63,945 nt of DNA from Hungatella sp. (GTDB lineage Bacteria > Bacillota > Clostridia > Lachnospirales > Lachnospiraceae), in contig JAAWHU010000010.1 of the NCBI GenBank assembly GCA_022796015.1, positions 1-63,945 on the forward strand, in the 5' to 3' direction. The translations under genes and the position numbers were made by a program. Under the pieces are notes generated by a model. It ran no database searches, had not been told where the DNA came from, and saw only the letters and a list, made by a program, of their open reading frames with translations. Positions within the stretch are counted from its first letter, which is position 1; each line of letters starts with the position of its first letter. Shown one piece after another: positions 23,078 to 35,739 of the stretch.

Positions 23078-23848
23078 GTGTATCATTTTTTTGTGACAAA
23101 GGATCAGATCGGGCCTGACTATATTACCATAACCGGCGGGGATGTGAACCATATCCGCAATGTGCTGCGGATGAAGGCCGGGGAACAGGTTTCTGTAAGG
23201 GATGGGGAGACCAAGGGATATGTGTGCGAGATCGCCGAGATAAGGGGGGAGACGGTTACGGCCCGGATTCTCTGTGAGGAGGAGGATCAAAAGGAACTGC
23301 CGGCCCGCCTCCATCTGTTCCAGGGACTTCCCAAGAGCGATAAGATGGAGCTGATTATCCAGAAGGCCGTGGAGCTTGGGGTATACCAGGTGATTCCTGT
23401 GGTTACGAAACGAACCATAGTAAAGATGGATAAGAAAAAAGAAGAATCCCGTATCAAACGATGGAACTCCATTGCAGAAAGCGCGGCGAAGCAGTCGGGC
23501 CGGAACCGGATTCCAAGGGTAACAGGGATAATGTCCTTTGAGGAGGCCCTGGCCTTTGCAGAGCAGTTTCAGGTAAAAATGATTCCCTTTGAACATGCAG
23601 AGGGCATGGAGGCTGCCAAAAGGGAGATGGAGCGCATGGGGCCTGGGATGGATATCGGGATTTTCATAGGGCCGGAGGGCGGCTTTGAGGACGAGGAAGT
23701 GAGCCGGGCAGAAGCTGCCGGGGTTAAGGCCGTGTCTTTGGGACGCCGTATTCTTCGGACAGAGACAGCAGGACTTATGGTGCTCTCGGTGGCCGGGTAT
23801 CTGCTGGAGACAAAGGGAATGGGTACAGGAGGAGAAGGGGATGCTTGA
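23078..23848 (+). CDS. rsmE: 16S rRNA m3U1498 methyltransferase
   Basis: 256-residue SPOUT methyltransferase with an N-terminal PUA-like domain. The C-terminal knot motifs IGPEGGFEDEEV and LGRRILRTETAG are diagnostic. It starts with GTG at 23078, 9 nt after prmA, with an AGGGGGA box. Its final 8 bases overlap the start of the next gene, so the unknown cassette is translationally tied to this housekeeping gene. Confidence 0.96.
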   Translation: MYHFFVTKDQIGPDYITITGGDVNHIRNVLRMKAGEQVSVRDGETKGYVCEIAEIRGETVTARILCEEEDQKELPARLHLFQGLPKSDKMELIIQKAVELGVYQVIPVVTKRTIVKMDKKKEESRIKRWNSIAESAAKQSGRNRIPRVTGIMSFEEALAFAEQFQVKMIPFEHAEGMEAAKREMERMGPGMDIGIFIGPEGGFEDEEVSRAEAAGVKAVSLGRRILRTETAGLMVLSVAGYLLETKGMGTGGEGDA

Positions 23849-25433
23849 GGCAAAAAATGAGCAGTTGGGTAATTTTGGGTTTCTTTTAGACTTTAACCAG
23901 GATTTCCTCTTTGAGTTTGCACAGCTGGCGGAGAGTAATCTCTATGTGAACAAGAGGCTGTGCGCAGTGTACATAAGACAGCTGACAGAAAGCTTTTTTG
24001 ATACGGTTATTGACAGAGAGGGAATCGAGATCGGAAGGAAAAGCTTAACAGATGGCATGGACAACATGGCCTCCATAAGCGATAAGCAGAAGGCCATAGA
24101 CCGGTATTACAATGAAAGGGATGTCAGAAGGCCGGCATACGGAAAGCGGGCGTTTCCCAGATACCCCGGCTCGTCAAGGACAGCGTATTCACGGCTGGAG
24201 TGTCCCGAAGGCGAGGGGGACAACCGGGTGGCAGGAAGCCTGGTGGATCCGGAGAAAAAGACGCTGTATGTGTGGGATTTTATCAGGCGTCTGGGCAATG
24301 CAGGCTCTCACGCCGTGTTATCGGAGGACAACAAGCGATGGCTGGAAGAAAAATATATGATCGCCGCCCTGGAACAGCTGTGTTTTAGAATGGGGATTTA
24401 TTTTTATGGTGTCCACAATGAGGACAATAAGGCTGTCTACCGTCTGGAACGCTGTTCTCTGGCAAGCAGGATGGTCTTTTATCCCAAGGAAGATGGGAGA
24501 ATGATCTCTGTCCAGAGCCAGGGGATTCTTCCGGGATACGTGGAAAAAAAGTACTATACCGTAATGCCCAAATCCTATACATGGGAAGGGAAGCTGTACT
24601 GGGAGAATTATATCAACAAATATTTTATAATCAGGCGGTATGAGATAAGGGGAGAAAACAGCGTCAGGGACTATCTGCTCCAGAGCCAGAAGGCATATCT
24701 GATTCTTCAGCAGACAGGTAATCTGGAGGGGATTGCCTCCTATGCCGTACTGGCAGACCTAAGGAACAGCGCTAACTATTATGTGACCTCCTATGAGTTT
24801 GACACGGAGCCCCTGGAATTGTCTGCCGAAACCTTGCGGACATGCGGCGTCTATGACAGCCCGGCAAGGCTTATGGGGCTGTGCTTAAGGCTGATAAGGG
24901 TAATGATGAACCTAAGCGCCAATCATATATACCATAGGAATCTCACCCACAACAGCATAAAGCTGTGCAGGCTGGGACAGGGGGAATTTGAATTGAAAAT
25001 CATTGATTTTGAACTGGTTAAGCTCTATGAGAAGGAGGAGGAATTTTCTCAGGCTACCGTATATAAGTATGTCAATGAACAGACCCAGCTGATGAATGAA
25101 TCCAACATAAGACAGTACGGCGCTGTGGAGTGGGACGAGCACACGGAAGAATGGGAGTATGAGAGAGAACAAAAAAGGCGTACAGCTATGATTCTGCGCA
25201 ATCTGCTGTGCCCGGCACATTTTGATAACTCCCGGTCCTATAATGCGCCGGCCTCATGGGAAGAAATATGGGAACAGAAGGAGCTTAAGGCCCTTAAGGC
25301 CCTCTGCCCGCCCAAGGACCAGATATTGAAGCAATTATTTGACATATCAGACCGATTAATGAATGACAGCGGTTTTGGACTATCACAGGCTTATGGCCAG
25401 ATTGAGAGTGTGGAGAATGAATACAAAGGTTGA
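23841..25433 (+). CDS. DUF4145/HEPN-like plus degenerate protein kinase, cassette protein A
   Basis: 530 residues, not a named family. The N-terminal 190 residues are helical and contain RRLGNAGSHA at about 149-158, resembling the IRN-x-x-xH motif of DUF4145-type domains found at the N-terminus of restriction subunits. The C-terminal half resembles a Ser/Thr kinase: IYHRNLTHNSIKL (363-375) sits where HRDLKPxN should be, and D389-F390-E391 replaces DFG. The catalytic aspartate is Asn, so it is probably a pseudokinase. The ATG lies inside the rsmE end with an AGGAGG box. The next gene overlaps by 17 bases. It probably partners with the kinase-fused helicase two genes downstream. Confidence 0.72.
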   Translation: MLEAKNEQLGNFGFLLDFNQDFLFEFAQLAESNLYVNKRLCAVYIRQLTESFFDTVIDREGIEIGRKSLTDGMDNMASISDKQKAIDRYYNERDVRRPAYGKRAFPRYPGSSRTAYSRLECPEGEGDNRVAGSLVDPEKKTLYVWDFIRRLGNAGSHAVLSEDNKRWLEEKYMIAALEQLCFRMGIYFYGVHNEDNKAVYRLERCSLASRMVFYPKEDGRMISVQSQGILPGYVEKKYYTVMPKSYTWEGKLYWENYINKYFIIRRYEIRGENSVRDYLLQSQKAYLILQQTGNLEGIASYAVLADLRNSANYYVTSYEFDTEPLELSAETLRTCGVYDSPARLMGLCLRLIRVMMNLSANHIYHRNLTHNSIKLCRLGQGEFELKIIDFELVKLYEKEEEFSQATVYKYVNEQTQLMNESNIRQYGAVEWDEHTEEWEYEREQKRRTAMILRNLLCPAHFDNSRSYNAPASWEEIWEQKELKALKALCPPKDQILKQLFDISDRLMNDSGFGLSQAYGQIESVENEYKG

Positions 25434-27651
25434 CTATGAAGAGGCAAAAGAGATTGGGGCCCAGTGGGGGTATCATGAATTTACGGCATTGCAGGACATG
25501 GTGCTAAAGGACTGCGGCTGTATGGAGAATGCCAGGGAATTTATAACAGGGTCTACATCTTCCGGCAAGACCCTGATCCCCCTGATCTGTGTGAAGGCTG
25601 ACCAAAGGCGGTGTGAGAAGAAGGTAAAGCTTTTGTATATGGTTCCATACAGGGCCCTTGCCACCCAGAAGGCAAAAGAATTTGTACAAAAGTTTACCCG
25701 GGAAAGGGTCATTGTCTCCACAAGTGAATACTGTTCCGAAGATGCGAATGTGATGAATGGAAACTGTGATATCGCTATTGTTATTTATGAAAAGATATTT
25801 ATGTTTCTGTCCAATGACAAGAGATTCTTAGATCAGTATACCCATATTGTCTTTGATGAACTGGGAATCGTGGAGAACCCCGAGCGGGGGCTGAAGGTGG
25901 ACTTTATCCTGTATCGGGCATGCAGGTTTACAAAAAGCAATATTTATGTTCTGGCGACTCCGTATTTCAACTGGAACTATTATATTTCCTTATATTCGTT
26001 TCACAGGCATCAGGAGGAGTCCAGACCTGTACAGATCAAAAATACCATTATCAATTATACAAAGGGTGAAGTGGGACATGAATATGATGAGCAGGATGGC
26101 CTTATCTTTGACTTATGCGACAAGCACCGCAGGCTGGGGCACAAGATTCTCATTTTTGCCAACAGCAGAGCCCGTGTGCGGGATATTTCAAAAAAGCTCT
26201 ATCTGCATTTTGGAGGCAGCGATACCATAAACGCCGGGGAGGCGAAGCGGCAGTTTTTATCCAGGCTGGTTATGACTGAGGATGATTTGTACGGAATCAT
26301 GGACAGAGACGACTACCTGGCCTATGCCGCCGGTATCACCTATCACAACGCGTCTCTTCCGGAGGAAGTGAGGGAGTTAATCGAGGATGATTTTTTAAAC
26401 GATGACGGCTGTATAGACATTGTGGCGGCTACGGAAACCTTGGCATACGGTCTCAACAGCAACGTGGATATGGTGATTGTCACGGAGATGGAAAAGCCCA
26501 TTGGCAGGGGGGAAAAGAAATTCCTTACAGTCAACGAGTACGAGAATTATATCGGAAGGGCAGGGAGGCTGGGCAAGAAAACCATGGGATATACCTATAC
26601 CTTTGTGGAGCAGGCTCAGGATACCCGGTGGGAGGAATTAAAGGAAAAGATAAAAGATCCGGATGTTATGGAAAGCCAGTATAAGGGGATCTGGGAGACC
26701 GAGGAGTGTATCTTTCATCTGCTGAATTATTTTGACGACCCCCATGGAATCCAGCTTAGCCAGGTGTCGGAGGCTCTTGGCTCTTTCCCCTACAGTCATG
26801 AGGGGGAGGCCATTGACCTGGAACCTTCCGTCCGGGAATTGCGAAGCCGAAGGCTTATAAGGGAGAACTATGATGAGCTGGATGACAGCGTAAAGATAAA
26901 GGTAAGTAAAACAGGAAGGCGTGCTTTGGGATTTATTGTCAGTATGGATACTTATGACAGGCTGAACCGGGAGAGGAACCGGCTGTTTCACGCCGGGACT
27001 ATCTGTATCTTTGATTTTCTCTATGCCGTATGTCACTGTAAGGAGCTGCAGATCTCGGATTACTATCCTATTAGGGACAGTAAAAATTATCGGAGCCATC
27101 TCATAGAGTGGCTTGGCCGTCTGGAGGAAAAGGGAGATGTGTCAGGGCCATGCAGAAAAAGCATTACCACGAATCCCATGATTACTAAATTTAAGAATGA
27201 GAAGAACCGGTTCAGCCAAAGGGATTTTGCGGAGCTTCGGAAGGTACGCATGGCGGAGGCCATCTACATGTGGATAGAGTGTTATTCCGTAGAGGAGATT
27301 GAAAAACGATGTGGATTTAGTTATGGAATCATCAAAAAGATGGGGGAGAAGGCAAAGTACATAACCGATATCCTGTCAGCGGAGATTTCCATGACAAAGG
27401 ATGTAGGCGACCTGGAGATCATCCTGAAGCAGACAGGTCTTTCCCTTTACTACGGAGTAAAAAGAGAGCTGATACAAACTTTGAATCTTCTGGAACTGGA
27501 ACCTGTGGAGGGGAGACAGCTGCGGACCATTGGAAGAATCAAGAACATAAAAGAACACTATTCAAAGGCAAAGGCAGGAAGGCTTGAGATGCTTATGGCG
27601 CAGATCGCTTCTTTTCCTGATGAATATAAAGGATTGGCAGAGGGTGATTAA
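25417..27651 (+). CDS. Ski2-like superfamily 2 helicase, cassette protein B
   Basis: 744 residues. Walker A GSTSSGKT at 45-52, motif II DELG at 147-150 (not DEIH), motif III near LATP (179-182), motif IV ILIFANSRARV, motif V ATETLAYGLN and motif VI NYIGRAGRLG around 378-386. The C-terminal half has winged-helix and ratchet-like regions, including VEEIEKRCGFSYGIIKKMGEKA, as in Hel308/Ski2 proteins. It should be an ATP-dependent nucleic acid translocase; DNA or RNA is not decided. The frame opens at 25363, but the ATG at 25417 is most plausible, overlapping gene A by 17 bases. The stop abuts the start of gene C. It is clearly a paralogue of the helicase part of C. Confidence 0.82.
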   Translation: MNTKVDYEEAKEIGAQWGYHEFTALQDMVLKDCGCMENAREFITGSTSSGKTLIPLICVKADQRRCEKKVKLLYMVPYRALATQKAKEFVQKFTRERVIVSTSEYCSEDANVMNGNCDIAIVIYEKIFMFLSNDKRFLDQYTHIVFDELGIVENPERGLKVDFILYRACRFTKSNIYVLATPYFNWNYYISLYSFHRHQEESRPVQIKNTIINYTKGEVGHEYDEQDGLIFDLCDKHRRLGHKILIFANSRARVRDISKKLYLHFGGSDTINAGEAKRQFLSRLVMTEDDLYGIMDRDDYLAYAAGITYHNASLPEEVRELIEDDFLNDDGCIDIVAATETLAYGLNSNVDMVIVTEMEKPIGRGEKKFLTVNEYENYIGRAGRLGKKTMGYTYTFVEQAQDTRWEELKEKIKDPDVMESQYKGIWETEECIFHLLNYFDDPHGIQLSQVSEALGSFPYSHEGEAIDLEPSVRELRSRRLIRENYDELDDSVKIKVSKTGRRALGFIVSMDTYDRLNRERNRLFHAGTICIFDFLYAVCHCKELQISDYYPIRDSKNYRSHLIEWLGRLEEKGDVSGPCRKSITTNPMITKFKNEKNRFSQRDFAELRKVRMAEAIYMWIECYSVEEIEKRCGFSYGIIKKMGEKAKYITDILSAEISMTKDVGDLEIILKQTGLSLYYGVKRELIQTLNLLELEPVEGRQLRTIGRIKNIKEHYSKAKAGRLEMLMAQIASFPDEYKGLAEGD

Positions 27652-30600
27652 ATGATCGGTGAATTTAGACAGATTGCTGACAATTACGGGGTTCCGGAAG
27701 AAATATTAGAAAAGATAGAATATGAGATCAGCGGCGGAGGAACCAGGCCCGTAGGCCTTACGGCCCTCCAGAGGGAAGCCATTGGCAATGACAGATTCTG
27801 GTGCTCCAATGACAGAGGCGGAAATGTTATTGTCCAGGGGGCTACTTCTTCCGGTAAGACCCTGGTGGCAGAGCTTTTGACGCTGCAATGTGTGTTTGCC
27901 ATGAATAAGCATGTAATATACCTGGTTCCCCTTAAAGCCCTGGTATCGGAAAAGGTCCAGCAGTTTAAGAGGGATATCTTTCATGGCGAGAGAACCATGG
28001 GGATCAATATTTTTGCCTCCTCCTCAGACTACCAGGATCATGATACGGAGCTTGCAGAGGGACAGTATGATATAGCGGTGGTGGTCTACGAGAAATTCTT
28101 TGCCATGCTGGCCGAGCAGAAGGACAACAAATTCCTGGAAAAGTGCGGCCTTATTGTAGTAGATGAGATTCAGCTTCTTAGCTCCCAGGACAGAGGGGCA
28201 AAGCTTGAATACTCCCTGACAAAGGTGCGGAATAATTATCAGAATACCATACGGATCCTGGGGCTTACTACGGTTGACTGTGATACCAGCTACGTGAACC
28301 GCTGGCTGGAGGCCGAGATCATCAAAAATTCCCAAAGGCCGATCGGATTAAAAGAGAGGATCATATCCTTAAGCGGGCTGTTTTGGGAAAGATATATTAA
28401 GGGAGAGGGCGAAGCTGAGGACAGTGAGCCGGAGGAAGGCCATATTGAGGGAAGAATCCAGATCGAAGATACCGAGAAGCTGAAAAATAAGTCTGTAAAC
28501 ATAAAAAAACAGGCCCTTTTGCGGGCCCTGTTAAGGAAAATCAGCAACGAGGATGACCAAAAGAAGATCATTGTCTTTGCCAACAGCAGGGAGCGCTGCA
28601 AGAGTATTGCCGGGGAGATCGCAAAGGGAGGCGTGTTTAGCAGGCAGGAGGTTAATGCCAGCCTAAGCAGTGAGCTGGAGAAGACAGATGATGACAGCGA
28701 AAAGAATCTTCTCCAGAACGAGCTTCTTCCCTATGGGATCGCATACCACAGCGCGGCCCTTCCCATGAGCCTGCGGGAGCTGATTGAACAGGAGTTTAAG
28801 AGGGCGGACGGAAGTATCCGGCTGATTGTGGCCACGGAGACCATCACCATCGGAATGAACCTTCCTGCTGACGTTATGATCTTATATGATAAGAAGGTGT
28901 TCAGAGGAAGCGATGGAGGCGTTGATATACGGCCCCAGGAGTATAAGAATTATATAGGAAGAGCCGGGAGGCTTGGCATAACGGATAAGATCGGTGAAAG
29001 CTACTTGTTTGTAGATACGGATTCCGACATACCCTATTACTGGAAGCAGTATGTGAACTGCAGAATCGAGGAGGTTTCCTCCGCCTTAAGGGATGCTTCC
29101 TCCAGGGAAAGTGCACCGTATTACCTGAATCTGCTGTGCAAGGGCAAGGAGGAGGTGTTTTCGGAGCAGACCATTAAGAAATTGTCAAAGAAGACCCTGA
29201 ATGCAGCGGAAGCCTCCTGGGAGGGCAGAGAGTATGATAGGGTTGATACGGCTAAGATTATTGAAGACTTTAAGAAGGTAGGCCTTATCCGACACAAGGA
29301 TACGGAGAGCAGTGAGCTGGATGACGACATGGATTCGGCATATAAGCTGACCAATTTCGGCGAAATGCTGGCTCCCTATGCCTTATCCGTGGTGACCTGC
29401 TTCAACATAAAGAAATATTTCCGGGATGGGGGAAGTGCCCATAAGGCCGGCCTTCCCATTGACTATACCAGTGAGGATCTAAAAAAAGACAGGTATCTTC
29501 TGGACATCTTATTTACAGTGTGCAAGATGCATGAGGTGAAAAAGATCATACACCCGGGGCTTCCGGAACCTAAAAATCCCAACAGCAGAAGGATCTACCA
29601 AAAAATGGAGGAGGCTGTCTTAAATTACCTGAATCAATATAAGGAGAGGGAAGGGGAGGACGGATTCTGGGACAATTCCGAGATAGAGAGAGTATTTTTC
29701 AGCGATGAGGAGCCTGAGACAGAGCAGCTGACCGCAGCCCTGAGGGCTATTCTTCTCTTTCACTGGATTAAGGGCGAGCTTCCATCACAGATCAAGGAAC
29801 ATGCAGGCTTGAAGATCAAGGAATTTACCTTGTATACCGGGGATATGTCGCGGATCGGCGAGAGCTGCAGCTATATTTTAGAGGCAATATCAAAATGCCT
29901 TTTTACCAACAAGAAGAGAATCGATGGCGGCGGGTTGGAGCATGGCTTCTATTCTCTGGCAGTTAAGCTAAAGTACGGCCTGTCAAACCCTAACTTGATT
30001 CAGGTGGCCAACAGACATGTATATGGGCTGTCAAGAAGTACCATCATTCAGATGGATAAGGCGGCCCAGGGCTGCGGATTTGATAATATTAATCTTTTTA
30101 TCCGCAGTTCCAACAAAAAGGTCTTTGATTATCTGACGCCTGCTCAGAGAAGAGACCTGATTCAGCAGATGAGCGAACGATATGACGACAGAAATGTGGA
30201 GAATCTTATTGCAAAGCTTGTGGAGGACGAGATCGTGGATTTCTCCATGGAGTCTCATTTTAAGGCTATCGCCCATCCAAGGGAAGCAGAAGAATGGCTG
30301 GACAGCATAAGAAATGTTTTTTCGTTCCTAGACGGCGTAAGGCAGCTTCCGCTGGCGAAGAACCATAGTTCCGCCAGAGGAATCCGGCTTAAATGGAAGG
30401 ACCATGAGATGTACATGGTGCTGCTTTTTGATAAGGCCTCTGTTTCCAAGGAGAAGCTTGCAGAATACAGAAAACAGCTGAATCTGCAGGCTCAGGACAA
30501 GGTTCTTTTTGTCCACGGCCGGGACGCGGATCTTGACCTTTCTAATCCCAATGATATCACAATCAGTGCGGATTATATGAGCAAGGTGATTCTGGAATTC

Positions 30601-31806
30601 CTGGCGCTGAGCGGATGCATCAACGGAGTCAGCATCTGTAATTATTTGTATGAACAGGAGGGAGCCGTATCGGATAAAGGAATGTCTTCCCTGCAGAAGA
30701 GTATTGAGAAGCTGCTGGAGTATTCCGAGGAGGAATCCTGCGGGGATGAGGAGGCCCTGAGTTCCTATAAAAAATATATCCGCAAATACGGGTACAAGGA
30801 TTTAGAGGTTATGGACTCGCCCCACGGTCATGCCATTATGCACATGGTCCAGGGTTCCCGCGGAATCGGAAATCTTGTGATAAAAGAGATTCGTATTCCG
30901 GAGAATGAGGAGGAATTTGAAGCGCTGGATGCAAAGGCCAAGGAGCTGTGGGAGAGGTACGGTCAGGAAGCGGATGAGGAAGAGCTGGAAACCATGGTCC
31001 GGCAGCTGTGCTGCTGTGATATCCCGCCGGCGGATCTAAAGGACATCATTGCCATGTCCCGCAAAAGAGAAGGGCAGCTTTATGGCGCCGTAGAACATAA
31101 AAAAGCATATTTTTATCAGTCCCTTGTGTTTTTGACAGAGGGGTACAAACGGTTAAATGAGGTTCGTATTGCCGCAGCCCTTGCCAGCAGCCATATTGTG
31201 ATGGTATTTAACCCGGAAATTTTCCATGTGAATTATGAGCATGGAAGCCTGAACTCTGTGGATACAAAATTTAACCATCTGAGAACCGATTTGTTCTTTG
31301 CCATGCAGTCCTATGATGGAAGCCTATTGGATAAAAGGGAGGAATTAAACAATAATCGGGAAGAGATCATCCGGATCGGTATCCAGATCAGTGAAGCCCT
31401 TAAGGTCTGCCATGAGAACAAGATCCTGCACAGGGATATTAAGCCTGCCAATATTCTCTTTTTGAACAAAAGCGAGTACTATCTCTGTGATTTTGGCAGT
31501 GCCGTAAAGATCAATGCGGGAAAGACATACCGTGTAGGGACTCGTGGGTTTATAGCGCCGGAGGCAGACGCGGGAGAGTATTCGGAGAGAAGCGATATCT
31601 ATTCCCTGGGAAAGACCTTACTATTTCTCTATAAGGGCAGGGAACAGGCCTCCGGGGAGCAAAGCCCGGAGGAGGATGAACTGATGCTGGTGTTAAAGAA
31701 GGCGTGTGAAGAGAAGCCTTCCGCCAGATATGAAGGTGCCGGCCAGCTGAGAGACGCCTTGAGGACACTAAAACTCCCCGCTGCTGCCGGCAGCAGGGAT
31801 AGGTGA
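27652..31806 (+). CDS. Ski2-like helicase fused to a Ser/Thr protein kinase, cassette protein C
   Basis: 1384 residues. Helicase: Walker A GATSSGKT at 63-70, motif II DEIQ at 171-174, motif V ATETITIGMN, motif VI NYIGRAGRLG with GRAGR at 436-440, then Ski2-type winged-helix and ratchet-like regions to about 860. Residues about 880-1045 are unassigned. The kinase follows: VIK lysine K1078, HRDIKPAN with D1262 and N1267, DFG at 1280-1282, then FIAPEA and a SDIYSLG segment. All key kinase residues are present, though the glycine loop is degenerate. The start abuts gene B, using AGAGGGTGAT. I know of no described helicase-kinase fusion of this form. It may phosphorylate a partner when its helicase engages a nucleic acid. 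Confidence 0.85.
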   Translation: MIGEFRQIADNYGVPEEILEKIEYEISGGGTRPVGLTALQREAIGNDRFWCSNDRGGNVIVQGATSSGKTLVAELLTLQCVFAMNKHVIYLVPLKALVSEKVQQFKRDIFHGERTMGINIFASSSDYQDHDTELAEGQYDIAVVVYEKFFAMLAEQKDNKFLEKCGLIVVDEIQLLSSQDRGAKLEYSLTKVRNNYQNTIRILGLTTVDCDTSYVNRWLEAEIIKNSQRPIGLKERIISLSGLFWERYIKGEGEAEDSEPEEGHIEGRIQIEDTEKLKNKSVNIKKQALLRALLRKISNEDDQKKIIVFANSRERCKSIAGEIAKGGVFSRQEVNASLSSELEKTDDDSEKNLLQNELLPYGIAYHSAALPMSLRELIEQEFKRADGSIRLIVATETITIGMNLPADVMILYDKKVFRGSDGGVDIRPQEYKNYIGRAGRLGITDKIGESYLFVDTDSDIPYYWKQYVNCRIEEVSSALRDASSRESAPYYLNLLCKGKEEVFSEQTIKKLSKKTLNAAEASWEGREYDRVDTAKIIEDFKKVGLIRHKDTESSELDDDMDSAYKLTNFGEMLAPYALSVVTCFNIKKYFRDGGSAHKAGLPIDYTSEDLKKDRYLLDILFTVCKMHEVKKIIHPGLPEPKNPNSRRIYQKMEEAVLNYLNQYKEREGEDGFWDNSEIERVFFSDEEPETEQLTAALRAILLFHWIKGELPSQIKEHAGLKIKEFTLYTGDMSRIGESCSYILEAISKCLFTNKKRIDGGGLEHGFYSLAVKLKYGLSNPNLIQVANRHVYGLSRSTIIQMDKAAQGCGFDNINLFIRSSNKKVFDYLTPAQRRDLIQQMSERYDDRNVENLIAKLVEDEIVDFSMESHFKAIAHPREAEEWLDSIRNVFSFLDGVRQLPLAKNHSSARGIRLKWKDHEMYMVLLFDKASVSKEKLAEYRKQLNLQAQDKVLFVHGRDADLDLSNPNDITISADYMSKVILEFLALSGCINGVSICNYLYEQEGAVSDKGMSSLQKSIEKLLEYSEEESCGDEEALSSYKKYIRKYGYKDLEVMDSPHGHAIMHMVQGSRGIGNLVIKEIRIPENEEEFEALDAKAKELWERYGQEADEEELETMVRQLCCCDIPPADLKDIIAMSRKREGQLYGAVEHKKAYFYQSLVFLTEGYKRLNEVRIAAALASSHIVMVFNPEIFHVNYEHGSLNSVDTKFNHLRTDLFFAMQSYDGSLLDKREELNNNREEIIRIGIQISEALKVCHENKILHRDIKPANILFLNKSEYYLCDFGSAVKINAGKTYRVGTRGFIAPEADAGEYSERSDIYSLGKTLLFLYKGREQASGEQSPEEDELMLVLKKACEEKPSARYEGAGQLRDALRTLKLPAAAGSRDR

Positions 31807-31833
31807 AAGGATCTCAGGAAAATCAATGGTCAT
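31768..31833 (-). CDS. Small ORF 3: 21-residue peptide, antisense to the end of gene C
   Basis: Starts ATG at 31833 (MTIDFPEILSP...) and ends TAG at 31770-31768, with 39 bases antisense to the last codons of gene C. An AGAGGAGGT ribosome site lies 8 nt upstream of the ATG, 25 nt after the stop of the 82-residue ORF. The strong ribosome site is the main reason to list it; there is no homology evidence. It is third in a proposed minus-strand mini-operon. Confidence 0.4.
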   Translation of the reverse strand: MTIDFPEILSPIPAAGSSGEF

Positions 31834-31858
31834 GACAATACCTCCTCTCAACATGGCG

Positions 31859-32107
31859 TCACACGGCATCCGCGACGCCGGATGTGACAGCGGCAGTGCC
31901 TATGGCAGTGGTGGCAGTTCCGGCGACGGAGGCGGCGGCAGCCCCGGCGGAGACAACGGCGGCGGTGCTTGCTCCGGCGGAGACGGCGACGGCACCCACT
32001 GTGGCGGCCAAGGGAACAACGGCGGCAACGGCAAGGGGAGCGGCGGCAATGAGTCCCACACCGGCTGCAATTTTGCCAATAGGTGAAAAATCATCGAAGA
32101 AACCCAT
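31859..32107 (-). CDS. Small ORF 2: 82-residue Ala/Gly-rich hydrophobic protein
   Basis: Starts MGFFDDFSPIGK, then runs as a long hydrophobic stretch with 28 alanines and 10 glycines among 82 residues and only four charged residues (D5, D6, K12, D80). Small-residue repeats (GxxxG, AxxxA type) resemble glycine-zipper membrane peptides, some of which form pores. The AGGAGGT box lies 8 nt before the ATG. It is on the strand opposite to the surrounding large genes. The plus-strand frame here (Gly-rich, no ribosome site) is its GC mirror. It could be a membrane-active effector, a bacteriocin-like peptide or a structural peptide; the function is unproven. Confidence 0.62.
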   Translation of the reverse strand: MGFFDDFSPIGKIAAGVGLIAAAPLAVAAVVPLAATVGAVAVSAGASTAAVVSAGAAAASVAGTATTAIGTAAVTSGVADAV

Positions 32108-32149
32108 AGAGTATACCTCCTGTGCAATGAAAAAAGGGTTGACAAGGAA

Positions 32150-32215
32150 TCAGTCGTCAAGCTGGTCATAGATGTCCTCCATGATCTCGCTGACTAAATC
32201 GAAGAACTCATCCAT
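32150..32215 (-). CDS. Small ORF 1: 21-residue acidic peptide
   Basis: ATG at 32215, TGA at 32152-32150. The peptide begins MDEFFDLVSEIM and has nine acidic and no basic residues, with a heptad-like pattern suggesting an amphipathic helix. Its ribosome site AGGAGGTGATC is an 11-base perfect complement of the usual 3' end of 16S rRNA, the strongest in the window. It lies 42 nt upstream of the 82-residue ORF and shares the FFD element with it. A leader peptide, an antitoxin-like partner or a small regulatory peptide are all possible. Confidence 0.5.
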   Translation of the reverse strand: MDEFFDLVSEIMEDIYDQLDD

Positions 32216-32225
32216 GGTGATCACC
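32216..32225. promoter_or_regulatory. Palindrome over the ribosome site of small ORF 1
   Basis: GGTGATCACC is a perfect 10-bp palindrome covering the end of the ribosome binding site and touching the ATG at 32215. It could be an operator for the neighbouring WYL regulators, or simply the consequence of a full-length anti-16S sequence. Confidence 0.35.
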
Positions 32226-32236
32226 TCCTGGAAAAG

Positions 32237-32245
32237 ATGATACCA
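32237..32245 (-). promoter_or_regulatory. Extended -10 promoter of the small-ORF mini-operon
   Basis: On the minus strand, TGG-TATCAT (32245-32237) is an extended -10 box. No good -35 hexamer is present; the upstream region is a T-run, as is common for extended -10 promoters. Transcription would start near 32230, giving a leader of about 15 nt before the ATG at 32215. Confidence 0.55.
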
Positions 32246-32289
32246 TAAGTGGATGGAAAAAAAATTGCATTGATAAAGGAGATGGTCGG

Positions 32290-33507
32290 TTGGCTTCAAG
32301 GGATGAGATCAACAGAAGAAGAGAGCATATTTTGACAAGCCTATGGGAGAAGCCGCGTTCTGTTGAAGAGCTGTCCCGGATTACAGGCAGGGGAAGGCGC
32401 ACGGTCCTTGACGACATCAGCACTCTCAGGAAAAGCGGCAATGTGATCGAGATAAAGGAAGGGGTAGCCTCTTTAAAAGAGAAGACTGATGTGCTGGTTC
32501 ACTCCTCTAAGTCAGTTATGAGAAAAATACATATCATTACCTTAATAAACCGGATAGGAGGAGCCAATAAGGAGCAGCTGTTAAAGGTAATCAAGGATGA
32601 TATGGGGGATTATGATGACAGGCAGGCTCAAAGACGCAGGGCAGATGGGGCCAGAAAGAATCTGGATAAAGATCTGAAGGAGCTTTTAAAAGAGCACGTG
32701 ATACACATGGAAGGGGACTTGTATACCGCATCCATAGATACTCCGGAGGTCATAAAATTCCAGGATGAATCCCTAATGAGTATTTACAACATGATTGTGA
32801 ACAACGGGGATAAGGCGGCATACAGTCCGGTGCTGTACTGCATTGCCAAAAAGATGGAGGAGGCGCTGCAGTATAAGCTGTACGCCGAGCCTAAGAACTA
32901 TGTTCCCTCCATTCTGATCCGGGACAGCAGGGAGAATATAGAGGAATACGAAGCGATGATAGACCGTGTGTGGCGGCTTCCCTTTAAAACCAAAAAGCTT
33001 TCCATTCAGGCGAAAAACCGATACGGCCAGGTTTACTGCAAAATAATTGCAGTGGAAAGGATGGTGTATCTCTGCGATTCGGGGAAGCTGTATCTTATGG
33101 GGGAGGAACACGGCTCCTTAAGGAGATGTATTATTGATTTTTCCCGTATGATAGACGCTGAGGCAACCGACCTTGACAATACCATATATGACAACGAAGC
33201 CATAAGGGACGTATGTGAGGAGATGCTTAAGATTTCAGCAGGAGAACCCCATGAGATCACAGTGGAATTTGACAATGCAGAGGCCGTGAAGGAGGATTTA
33301 AGGAGACATATAAAGACAAGAACCAAGGGGGCTCTGCAAAGTAAGGAGGGCAGGCTTGTATACACAGACAGAATACGGGGCATCGACGACATGGCTAAGA
33401 TGATTAGAAGATATGGGAAGTCCTGTAAAGTCCTAAAGGATGAGGCGTTAAAGGACAGGATGGTGCAGTCCTCAAAAAAATTGATAGAGAGATATGAGAG
33501 GAAATGA
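32290..33507 (+). CDS. WYL-domain transcriptional regulator, cassette protein D
   Basis: 405 residues. A winged helix at about 10-60 (SVEELSRITGRGRRTVLDDISTL), a second helical/winged region at 75-145, a WYL domain at about 232-295 (KKLSIQAKNRYGQVYCKIIAVE ... RRCIIDFSRM, split here), and a C-terminal WCX domain at about 322-392. WYL domains bind nucleic acid fragments or nucleotides, and regulators of this kind control defence loci (BrxR, CapW) or DNA-damage genes (PafBC). The start is TTG at 32290 behind AAAGGAG. It overlaps gene E by four bases. It probably regulates the cassette and/or the divergent small ORFs. Confidence 0.87.
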   Translation: MASRDEINRRREHILTSLWEKPRSVEELSRITGRGRRTVLDDISTLRKSGNVIEIKEGVASLKEKTDVLVHSSKSVMRKIHIITLINRIGGANKEQLLKVIKDDMGDYDDRQAQRRRADGARKNLDKDLKELLKEHVIHMEGDLYTASIDTPEVIKFQDESLMSIYNMIVNNGDKAAYSPVLYCIAKKMEEALQYKLYAEPKNYVPSILIRDSRENIEEYEAMIDRVWRLPFKTKKLSIQAKNRYGQVYCKIIAVERMVYLCDSGKLYLMGEEHGSLRRCIIDFSRMIDAEATDLDNTIYDNEAIRDVCEEMLKISAGEPHEITVEFDNAEAVKEDLRRHIKTRTKGALQSKEGRLVYTDRIRGIDDMAKMIRRYGKSCKVLKDEALKDRMVQSSKKLIERYERK

Positions 33508-34535
33508 ATCAATACCATACCAATGTATACGAGAGAGTTACAGATATTATGTATCTTTTATATGAGGCGGATGGAATTTCCGTCAGCGAGATTTCTGCTA
33601 AATATAAGGTGGATTATCATATCGTATTGGAAGACTTAAGGTATTTATCAGAAGCACAGGAGCTGGAGTTTTTAATCTTTCCCTGTGATGAGAGGTTTGA
33701 TACCGATGAGTTCCTGGAGGAATTATTTGCCGGGAAACATAATGAAGTAAAGCTGTATGCAGAAAAGGCAGATGACGGCTACATGGTTTCTCTTCAATTA
33801 TCAGCCTTTGAAAAAATATTTTTAAACCATTTTTTAAAGGAATATCCATGGAAGGAGGAGCTGGGCAGGGTTCATGACATCTTAATAAAGAACGGGCCGG
33901 CTGACACGTCATGGGCCGTGCTCCAGGTTATGGGCCAGATCAATGAGGCCATAGGCAGCCATGAGGCTGTGAGAATCCGATATGATTCCCGCGAGATGGA
34001 TATGGTTCCCATTAAGATGGTGAAAATGGTTTCCACAGGTACTTGTTACTGTATGGCTCTGGAGCTTGATGAGGGCCTGGGGCCGGGTGAGCTGATGGAG
34101 GCTTCAGGCCGGATGCGATATGTAAGGCTTGACCGGGTTGAACATGTGGAGGGCTTATGCCAAGGGCCGTATCTTCTTACGGGAGACTGGCTGAAGCAGG
34201 AGCTTGGGATGCTGGATTACCGCTGGGGAATGGAAGACGACCAGGGCCCCTTTCCCTTTGCAATGATCGTATATGATGAGGCCAATCTTCCGAGGCGGCT
34301 CTACGGCCAGCTGAAGAACAGAAGGTACGGAACCTGGAAGCGTAATGCAGACCACACATATCTGTATGAGGATATGGTTATGGATTATGAGAGTTTGAAG
34401 CAGTGGGTAATGGAGCTGGGCAGTTCTGTCAAGGTGATAGAACCCCGAAGGCTGCGGGACGAAATCCTTGAAGCTGCATACAGCAGGCTGGACATCTATG
34501 GTAAGGGCTCAGGAGATGGCGGCACAGCAGAATAA
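33504..34535 (+). CDS. WYL-domain transcriptional regulator, cassette protein E
   Basis: 343 residues. N-terminal helix-turn-helix (ISVSEISAKYKVDYHIVLED), WYL domain at about 150-215 (EAVRIRYDSREMDMVPIKMV ... RYVRLDRVEHV, split here) and WCX-like C-terminus ending GSSVKVIEPRRLRDEIL. ATGA overlap with gene D shows coupled translation. Tandem WYL genes recall PafB/PafC, which work as a heterodimer, so D and E may form one regulator. E is last in the cassette; the cysteine desulfurase starts 49 nt later with no terminator seen. Confidence 0.84.
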   Translation: MNQYHTNVYERVTDIMYLLYEADGISVSEISAKYKVDYHIVLEDLRYLSEAQELEFLIFPCDERFDTDEFLEELFAGKHNEVKLYAEKADDGYMVSLQLSAFEKIFLNHFLKEYPWKEELGRVHDILIKNGPADTSWAVLQVMGQINEAIGSHEAVRIRYDSREMDMVPIKMVKMVSTGTCYCMALELDEGLGPGELMEASGRMRYVRLDRVEHVEGLCQGPYLLTGDWLKQELGMLDYRWGMEDDQGPFPFAMIVYDEANLPRRLYGQLKNRRYGTWKRNADHTYLYEDMVMDYESLKQWVMELGSSVKVIEPRRLRDEILEAAYSRLDIYGKGSGDGGTAE

Positions 34536-34584: not shown

Positions 34585-35739
34585 ATGGAAGTATATTTTG
34601 ATAATTCAGCGACTACCAGAGTCTTTGACTCGGTAAAGGATATTGTAGTAAAGACCATGACAGAGGATTACGGCAACGCCGCCGCCAAGCATAGGAAGGG
34701 CGTGGAGGCGGAGCGCTACATTAAGGAGGCAAGGGCAGTGATCGCAGGGAGCCTAAAGGTTCAGGAGAAGGAGATTATCTTTACCTCCGGCGGTTCCGAG
34801 TCCAACAACATGGCTCTCATCGGCACGGCGCTGGCCAATAAGCGGCAGGGCAATCATATAATCAGTACAGGCGTGGAACACTCTTCCGTATACAATACCC
34901 TGGGATTTTTGGAAGATATGGGCTTTGAGGTCACCTATCTTCCCGTGGATCACAAGGGCCATATCAGCCTTGAGGCCTTAAAAGAGGCCATAAGGCCCGA
35001 GACCATACTGGTGTCTGTCATGTATGTGAACAACGAGGTGGGCGCCGTGGAGCCGGTGGAAGAAATCAGCCGGGTGATAAAGGAGTGCCGGCCCTCGGCC
35101 CTGTTCCATGTAGACGCCATTCAGGCCTACGGAAAGTATGAGATTCGTCCCAAACGCCAGGGCATCGACCTGTTAAGCGTCAGCGGCCACAAGCTTCACG
35201 GCCCCAAGGGGGTAGGATTTTTGTATGTGGGTGAAAAGGTCAAGATAAAGCCTCTGATCTATGGGGGAGGCCAGCAGAGAGGCATGCGCTCCGGCACGGA
35301 GAATGTGCCGGGAGTGGCAGGCCTGGGAGCCGCCGTAAAGGAGATTTATCAGGATCACAAGAACAAGGTGGATTATCTCTACGGCCTTAAGGATCACCTT
35401 ATGACCCGGCTGAAGGAGCTGGAAGGATGTGTGGTCAACAGTCAGCCGGGAAGAGAGAGCGCCCCTCAGATCGTAAGCGCAAGCTTTGAGGGAGTTCGCA
35501 GCGAGGTGCTCCTCCATGCCCTGGAGGACCGGGGAATCTATGTGTCCTCCGGCTCCGCCTGCTCCAGCACCCACCCGGGCATCAGCGGTACCTTAAAGGG
35601 CATCGGAGTGCGGGAGGATCTTTTAGACGCTACCCTGCGGTTCAGCTTCGGCATGTTTAACACAAAGGAAGAGATCGATTATGCCGTGGAAGTGCTGGGG
35701 GAGCTTTTGCCGGTTCTCAGGAAGTACAAGAGAGGATGA
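34585..35739 (+). CDS. Cysteine desulfurase (NifS/IscS family)
   Basis: 384-residue PLP enzyme. PLP lysine K203 in SGHKLHGPKG, catalytic cysteine C326 in the SSGSACSS loop, and an N-terminal YFDNSATT motif. It removes sulfur from cysteine as a persulfide. It is next to thiI, so it very likely feeds tRNA 4-thiouridine synthesis, as the desulfurase paired with ThiI does in Bacillus. The ATG follows TTAGGAGG. The start lies 49 nt after the cassette's last gene. Confidence 0.95.
   Translation: MEVYFDNSATTRVFDSVKDIVVKTMTEDYGNAAAKHRKGVEAERYIKEARAVIAGSLKVQEKEIIFTSGGSESNNMALIGTALANKRQGNHIISTGVEHSSVYNTLGFLEDMGFEVTYLPVDHKGHISLEALKEAIRPETILVSVMYVNNEVGAVEPVEEISRVIKECRPSALFHVDAIQAYGKYEIRPKRQGIDLLSVSGHKLHGPKGVGFLYVGEKVKIKPLIYGGGQQRGMRSGTENVPGVAGLGAAVKEIYQDHKNKVDYLYGLKDHLMTRLKELEGCVVNSQPGRESAPQIVSASFEGVRSEVLLHALEDRGIYVSSGSACSSTHPGISGTLKGIGVREDLLDATLRFSFGMFNTKEEIDYAVEVLGELLPVLRKYKRG

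Follow-up and report, generated by a model that had tools for sequence, protein, structure and literature searches.

A cassette between rsmE and nifS

Examination of a 63,945-nucleotide stretch of DNA from Hungatella sp. (GCA_022796015.1, contig JAAWHU010000010.1; the whole stretch is referred to below as the window), a gut-type bacterium, revealed a run of five large genes, termed A to E, that spans positions 23841-34535 and lies between the core genes rsmE and nifS, here separated by 10.7 kb. Two of the five, B and C, encode adjacent helicases, the latter fused to a protein kinase. Relatives of this helicase pair were found at 14 further loci, most of which present a TIR or candidate TIR module at the end of C, and the twin-helicase system very likely serves in immunity, judging from the partners encoded next to it. 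The genes of the cassette and its flanks are as follows, with NK4A144 denoting Lachnospiraceae bacterium NK4A144, where a relative of the cassette occurs:

23078..23848, plus strand: rsmE, left flanking core gene (Pfam Methyltrans_RNA, 9.3e-52), which adjoins nifS in 23 of 23 fetched congeners and shares its last 8 bases with the start of A
23841..25433, plus strand: A, 530 amino acids, probable pseudokinase (weak MkoA match, degenerate motifs, 50% identical relative in NK4A144)
25417..27651 (longest open reading frame from 25363), plus strand: B, Ski2/Hel308-type helicase (Walker A, DELG and GRAGR motifs; profile matches)
27652..31806, plus strand: C, Ski2-type helicase (about residues 1-750), followed by a middle part without assigned family and a C-terminal protein kinase (Pfam residues 1211-1340)
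32290..33507, plus strand: D, helix-turn-helix (HTH) and WCX regulator of WYL type, TTG start (WCX 4.8e-7; PADLOC WYL 2.4e-10)
33504..34535, plus strand: E, HTH and WYL/WCX regulator (WCX 1.1e-7; PADLOC WYL 8.4e-14)
34585..35739, plus strand: nifS-like cysteine desulfurase, right flanking core gene (Pfam Aminotran_5, 1.6e-77), with an ortholog in 23 of 25 other genomes of the genus

An earlier, sequence-only reading of the window had given this gene order with these coordinates and had described B as a Ski2-like helicase, C as such a helicase joined to an intact kinase, and D and E as WYL regulators, all of which is borne out. B matched Pfam DEAD (1.5e-13), NCBIfam PRK02362 (4.2e-36), Hel308 (6e-31) and, in the PDB, Hel308 (3.7e-23); its start probably lies near position 25417 rather than 25363, judging from the NK4A144 gene. 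C matched Pfam DEAD (1.6e-23) and, at residues 1211-1340, Pkinase (7.9e-25), with the catalytic motifs VIKEI, HRDIKPANIL, DFG and APE being kept both here and in the NK4A144 relative, as read from an alignment. In E, the Pfam WYL match was sub-threshold (0.058), while the WYL part of D fell under Pfam detection, and PDB searches with D and E returned no match. In the window as in NK4A144, D and E are adjacent, yielding two neighboring HTH-WYL-WCX proteins in a PafBC-like pairing.

The description of A in that same reading, namely a DUF4145-like domain followed by a degenerate kinase, fared less well, with the kinase portion being plausible and the DUF4145 likeness of the N-terminus marginal. 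No Pfam family was found in A at E<=1. The PADLOC MkoA kinase region matched A at 3.1e-4 and its NK4A144 relative at 1.2e-4, and in the two copies HRD is replaced by HRN/HRS and DFG by DFE. When a profile of A was compared with the PDB, weak kinase matches appeared from 0.14 upwards, with unrelated ones being ranked better. The N-terminus matched PRK11448 (0.0017), and DUF4145 was matched at 0.058 in the NK4A144 relative.

The A-E block is an insertion between rsmE and nifS, since these two genes are neighbors in 23 of 23 fetched congeners. At these loci (the window's own locus excluded), prmA, rsmE, nifS and thiI are consecutive, the rsmE and nifS matches are spaced by 10 to 367 bp, and no A-E match at E 1e-5 was obtained in the stretches fetched. 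A nifS ortholog of at least 71% identity is present in 24 of the 26 same-genus genomes (own included), with the remaining two offering only a paralogue. No exact repeat of 9 bases or more was common to both ends of the insertion when 300 and 350 bp were compared, no integrase or plasmid gene was found among the flanking genes checked, no defence island was seen beside the cassette, and no Rfam family was detected at the cassette. The assembly is fragmented (163 contigs); a chimera is nonetheless disfavored because A to E recur in NK4A144.

The cassette is rare, and it does not form a set of core genes. D was matched in one of the 26 genus genomes (E 1e-10), and likewise the profile of the C core was matched at full length in one of the 26, with three others yielding weak local matches (3e-14 to 5e-6). 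Without its kinase, C has a full-length relative in one of 298 other genomes of the family (G107; 38% identity, 6e-149) and weaker matches only in 47 more. At E 1e-30, the core profile recovered its own genome alone among 392 genomes of the order, 391 of the class and 398 of the phylum, draws that overlap and in which at most two candidates were scored per genome. A was found in one of 48 genomes of the NK4A144 genus, this being NK4A144 itself. Plasmids and phages (at E<=0.01) as well as viral contigs gave no match to A; plasmids gave none to D, plasmids and viral contigs none to E, and viral contigs none to the C core. C matched at least 200 plasmid and at least 40 phage records, although none among the matches listed covers 80% of the query. 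Among 200 family genomes, E gave one distant match, in G197. There (L097:9359-11483), a distant WYL-like regulator pair, one member of which matches E at 4.3e-9, is surrounded by genes that appear unrelated, and the open reading frames (ORFs) listed for this locus include no helicase.

The helicase pair and its output modules

A GTDB scan with a two-row alignment of the core returned 58 stretches, and relatives are encoded in 14 of them. As the scan was pattern-based, this number is a minimum; a previous scan, for which C was the sole query, gave nothing and so missed the NK4A144 locus (L045). In the window and at all 14 related loci, a B-like helicase lies directly upstream of a C-like helicase, with B being split over two frames in L052 and cut by a contig end in L046. 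The conserved unit, as judged from these loci, is the helicase pair B-C rather than the whole A-E set of the sequence-only reading; A, the kinase and the WYL pair are features of a single subtype. At L056 (12507-17674), C is interrupted by an IS110-type transposase gene, which probably renders this copy defective.

In a tree of 33 rows, from which B of L052 and both B and C of L056 were omitted, the B rows form one clade (100/99) and the C rows another (88/75). The branching orders of B and C largely agree, with L053 being placed differently, and the B rows of L051, L053 and L054 were flagged as long branches of unsure placement. Among the B rows as among the C rows, the window groups with L045 at full support, and this group is nested in lineages that bear TIR (support for B, 100/99 and 90/78; for C, 83/81 and 85/89). 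Because the two kinase-type loci branch inside these lineages, a switch from TIR to kinase is favored, albeit not proven. Plasmid helicases (25-31% identity) were also considered as family members and served as outgroup only; at six such loci, no B-like helicase was annotated beside the matching helicase in the stretches shown.

At or after the end of C, the 14 related loci present a kinase in one case, a fused TIR module in 11 and a separate TIR gene in one, with L056, where IS110 interrupts C, being left unassigned. The kinase type thus comprises the window and L045 (Pkinase 7.4e-21). Among the remainder, a TIR_2 domain is clear in L051 (6.9e-16) and weak, under the cut-off, in L053 (3.8e-5). 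L054 encodes its TIR in a gene of its own at the end of C (2.5e-16), and nine further loci have one divergent C-terminus in common. A profile built from these nine rows is co-linear with the TIR domains of L051 and L054 (E 0.0011, probability 21%) and contains an invariant NC..E motif, the position of which we take to be the site of the TIR catalytic glutamate. An 11-row profile that includes L051 and L053 gave weak matches to plant TIR domains (0.025 to 0.076).

In three of the 14 loci (L047, L049 and L057), C is followed by a ThsA_Macro gene, with scores of 8.2e-35 (L057, scored as L037, which is the same locus) and 7.7e-46 (L049), 74% identity between the L047 and L057 genes, and a PADLOC ThsA match of 2e-56. 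A TIR protein paired with TM-macro ThsA is described as one kind of Thoeris (PMC11204291). It is mainly because relatives encode TIR and ThsA macro partners that the twin-helicase core is read as an immune sensor, and the antiphage role advanced in the sequence-only reading thereby gains strong, if indirect, support. The kinase of C, in turn, is quite probably a replaced output module of this core.

The TIR type is also variably present among relatives. L057 is the locus of G107 (100% identity), and in the genus of this TIR-type genome mutS is found in 12 of 13 genomes. In 10 of 11 fetched relatives of G107, miaB lies near mutS with no B, C or macro match between them, both genes having been identified by reading their sequences; in the eleventh, G1466, miaB lies outside the stretch. 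In these relatives (L107-L117), the distance between miaB and mutS varies between 35 bp and about 4 kb; the interval is a possible hotspot for insertions. At L049:16784-18505, a tyrosine integrase and DUF6262 are found directly after the ThsA macro gene, in a region that is presumably Tn554-like, and the TIR-type system may ride on such an element. At L051:16075-20253, past a transposase beside the TIR-type pair, lies a gene for a 1392-residue HD-CE protein, perhaps a second conflict system.

The kinase subtype and its array of small ORFs

All five genes recur in NK4A144, where A to E are found at 28-66% identity on two contigs. Identity to the window amounts to 50% for A, 54% for B, 66% for the helicase of C and 48% for its kinase part. 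The contig bearing C ends about 1 kb past that gene, within a repeat. The relatives of D (D'; 28% identity, E 2.5e-47) and, adjoining it, of E (E'; 30%, 5.8e-42) stand at the start of the second contig, whose initial 84 bases match the end of the first contig at 99% identity. Beyond E', a T-box leader (L100:2744-3011) precedes an ORF read as proS, such that the NK4A144 site differs from that of the window.

The region between C and D, passed over in the sequence-only reading, contains a row of small ORFs on the opposite strand:

31768..31833, minus strand: mini-ORF 3, 21 amino acids, overlapping the 3' end of C; AGGAGG 7 nt before the ATG
31859..32107, minus strand: mini-ORF 2, 82 amino acids, rich in Ala, Val and Gly and very hydrophobic (grand average of hydropathicity 1.36); AGGAGG 8 nt before the ATG
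32150..32215, minus strand: mini-ORF 1, 21 amino acids, acidic; AGGAGG 8 nt before the ATG
31775..31799, minus strand: terminator-like stem-loop near the end of the array (1, as compared with 0.6 expected in shuffles)
32216..32289: 74-bp gap from which mini-ORF 1 and D start in opposite directions, the expected regulatory region by position

The minus strand of the window offers five strict sites combining a Shine-Dalgarno sequence with an ATG in all, and three of these fall within the 484-bp gap between C and D, where the shuffle mean was 0.006 and none of 1000 shuffles reached three. Behind C in NK4A144 lie six small ORFs (11-67 amino acids) with strong sites, together with repeated 23-residue ORFs, and one more strong site is found on the D' side. 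Loose counts for these regions were 6, 12 and 3, with some ATGs being counted via overlapping sites, and strict counts were 3, 2 and 1; the counts of mini-ORFs with strong Shine-Dalgarno sites in both kinase-type arrays were reached by none of 1000 shuffles. No comparable cluster was seen in the 13 other related loci. The array belongs to the kinase subtype and is likely part of the system. As mini-ORF 1 and D diverge from starts 75 bp apart, D and E are placed to control the array, and such control is predicted with somewhat less assurance. A stem-loop is readable by eye in the NK4A144 array, and a search of viral contigs with the 67-residue peptide gave no match.

Comparison with known systems and a candidate mechanism

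PADLOC, Pfam and NCBIfam profile searches recognized single domains only, such that no named system was found for A-E as a set, as the sequence-only reading had held. Likewise, no twin-helicase TIR or kinase system was found among the matches listed in a search of open-licence PMC papers. The further proposal that a helicase-kinase fusion accompanied by a pseudokinase and a WYL pair is new applies to the set, which remains unmatched, and not to the fusion itself. Mokosh joins a kinase to a helicase, MkoA having an SF1-type (superfamily 1) helicase and the PLD protein being MkoB. A weakly matches the kinase region of MkoA, whereas C is a DEAD/Ski2 protein of superfamily 2 (SF2) with its kinase at the C-terminus, and no PLD match was found among A-E; the cassette was not assigned to Mokosh.

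Hachiman, which resembles the cassette in coupling a presumed DNA-sensing helicase of Ski2 type to an output, was similarly set aside. Its HamB models in PADLOC match the helicase cores only, of B at 4.4e-22 and of C at 1.8e-33 (the PADLOC matches of C being the best 25 of 63), no match to the HamA (DUF1837) nuclease was found in A, D or E at E<=1, and the cassette differs in having two helicases and either a kinase or TIR as output. The best PADLOC match of C, the candidate PDC-M23B (2.2e-38), is confined to residues 40-481, that is, to the helicase core; to our knowledge, no kinase, twin helicase or WYL protein is known for this candidate. Thoeris with TM-macro ThsA (type II) is resembled by L047, L049 and L057, which pair TIR with a ThsA macro gene, yet TIR in these relatives is joined to a twin-helicase sensor. 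The window itself encodes no TIR (ThsB) match by Pfam and no ThsA in A-E. Membership in BREX/Pgl was rejected, as no PglZ or BrxC match was found in A, D or E, with PglW (A) and BrxHI (B) being matched weakly.

The pairing of a kinase with transcription regulators at immune genes recalls CapK-CapS, in which CapK is described as a kinase activated by single-stranded DNA (ssDNA) that phosphorylates the repressor CapS and so releases immune operons (PMC13373217). CapK is, however, a GHKL kinase acting on a STAS protein, whereas the kinase of the cassette is of Hanks type and fused to a helicase. A further parallel is offered by WYL proteins that regulate defence loci, such as BrxR and CapW, the latter described as repressing CBASS (PMC9122588), with the WYL pair here facing an array of tiny ORFs. 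Two WYL proteins acting together are likewise seen in PafBC, described as an ssDNA-activated factor that governs the DNA damage response (PMC11804915). The core would be a variant of defence that couples a helicase sensor to TIR output, with the kinase and peptide-array subtype possibly representing a new kind.

On balance, the cassette appears to be an inserted modular immune system in which helicase sensing would be relayed by the kinase and by D-E to the peptide operon. B and C would monitor nucleic acid, switching state once damaged or aberrant phage DNA or RNA is encountered, a role proposed for them because HamB of Hachiman is described as a sensor helicase that unleashes its effector upon DNA damage (PMC12278908). 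The output module at the C-terminus would thereby be turned on. Where this module is the kinase, the latter, gated or scaffolded by A, would phosphorylate D-E (or A); D-E as its target is plausible but doubtful. D and E may themselves sense ssDNA, as PafBC does, and would release transcription of the divergent peptide operon, with one or more hydrophobic peptides then arresting or killing the infected cell. In its full form, the scheme would have the fused kinase modify a pseudokinase/WYL relay, upon which tiny, variable peptides from an operon otherwise kept silent would kill the cell or arrest its growth; this form is offered tentatively, as less likely than not.

Should this scheme be true, one nucleic-acid-sensing core would have been re-plugged between TIR signaling and a Hanks-type kinase, driving nucleotide signaling in some bacteria and phospho-signaling in others, an instance of sensor-output modularity in bacterial immunity. 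Phage defence would likewise gain a kinase pathway open to testing, and rows of genes for tiny peptides, passed over by ORF and family tools, would come to light as possible immune effectors.

Several points weigh against the scheme. The kinase subtype, with A, the kinase and the WYL pair, is known from two genomes, in one of which D and E stand on a separate contig from A-C, the two contigs appearing to be neighbors on the strength of their common end repeat. No match to A, D or E was found in L046-L058 by ORF comparison, though L046 and L052 end soon after C, and TIR-type loci lacking A, D, E and arrays imply that these parts are dispensable for the core. The assignment of the nine divergent C-termini to TIR is of moderate strength, with no Pfam TIR match found in the two that were scanned (L037, i.e., L057, and L047). 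A is a probable, weakly supported pseudokinase, with hhalign giving no support for its likeness to the C-terminal part of C (E 0.2). In the array, one peptide pair is alike between the two genomes (MxxxFPE...PI), the best of 24 pairs and equaled in 29 of 1000 shuffles, a likeness that is suggestive only. The stem-loop of the window is not above chance, and neither are promoters, none being found in the array region of the window and one on the D' side as compared with 2.0 expected.

Another reading retains the immune core and has the kinase of C phosphorylating A, the latter then being the effector or its gate, with the tiny ORFs and D-E forming a module apart, be it regulatory or a passenger. 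In both kinase-type loci, A lies immediately before B-C; it shares one gene run with C, is matched in none of the 13 other loci and is conserved (50-52%), when the array peptides hardly are. However, A contains no recognizable effector domain, and D, E and the array accompany the kinase type in both genomes, which leaves this reading unlikely, though worth retaining. It is similarly unlikely, or slightly more so, that the array is untranslated, being instead a remnant or an RNA element. The two arrays encode very different peptides, no above-threshold Pfam family was found for the two longest, and the assembly broke at the array, yet the Shine-Dalgarno counts described above lie far beyond those of the shuffles in both genomes and no Rfam family was found at the arrays.

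The cassette could also be a toxin-antitoxin-like or element-stabilizing module, in which toxic tiny peptides are silenced by D-E and C reports loss of, or damage to, the element instead of phage infection. Such a module would agree with the tiny hydrophobic ORFs, the divergent regulators and the repeats found in the array of NK4A144, but the window flanks that were checked offer neither integrase nor plasmid genes, and relatives with TIR and ThsA better fit immunity than this improbable role. Least probable is a housekeeping role in Lachnospiraceae, as an operon for DNA/RNA repair or stress, the main alternative in the sequence-only reading, for which speak helicases resembling Hel308/Ski2 and the control of the DNA damage response by the WYL pair PafBC (PMC11804915), but not a site empty in 23 of 23 fetched congeners, the finding of D and of the full-length C core in one of 26 genus genomes each and of a full-length C relative in one of 298 other family genomes, nor the TIR and ThsA partners. 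Two similar 75-residue small proteins with strong Shine-Dalgarno sites were noted upstream of A in L045 (scan hits at 1530 and 5518, minus strand), in surroundings that comprise repeated short-chain-dehydrogenase-like ORFs and a PD-(D/E)XK transposase.

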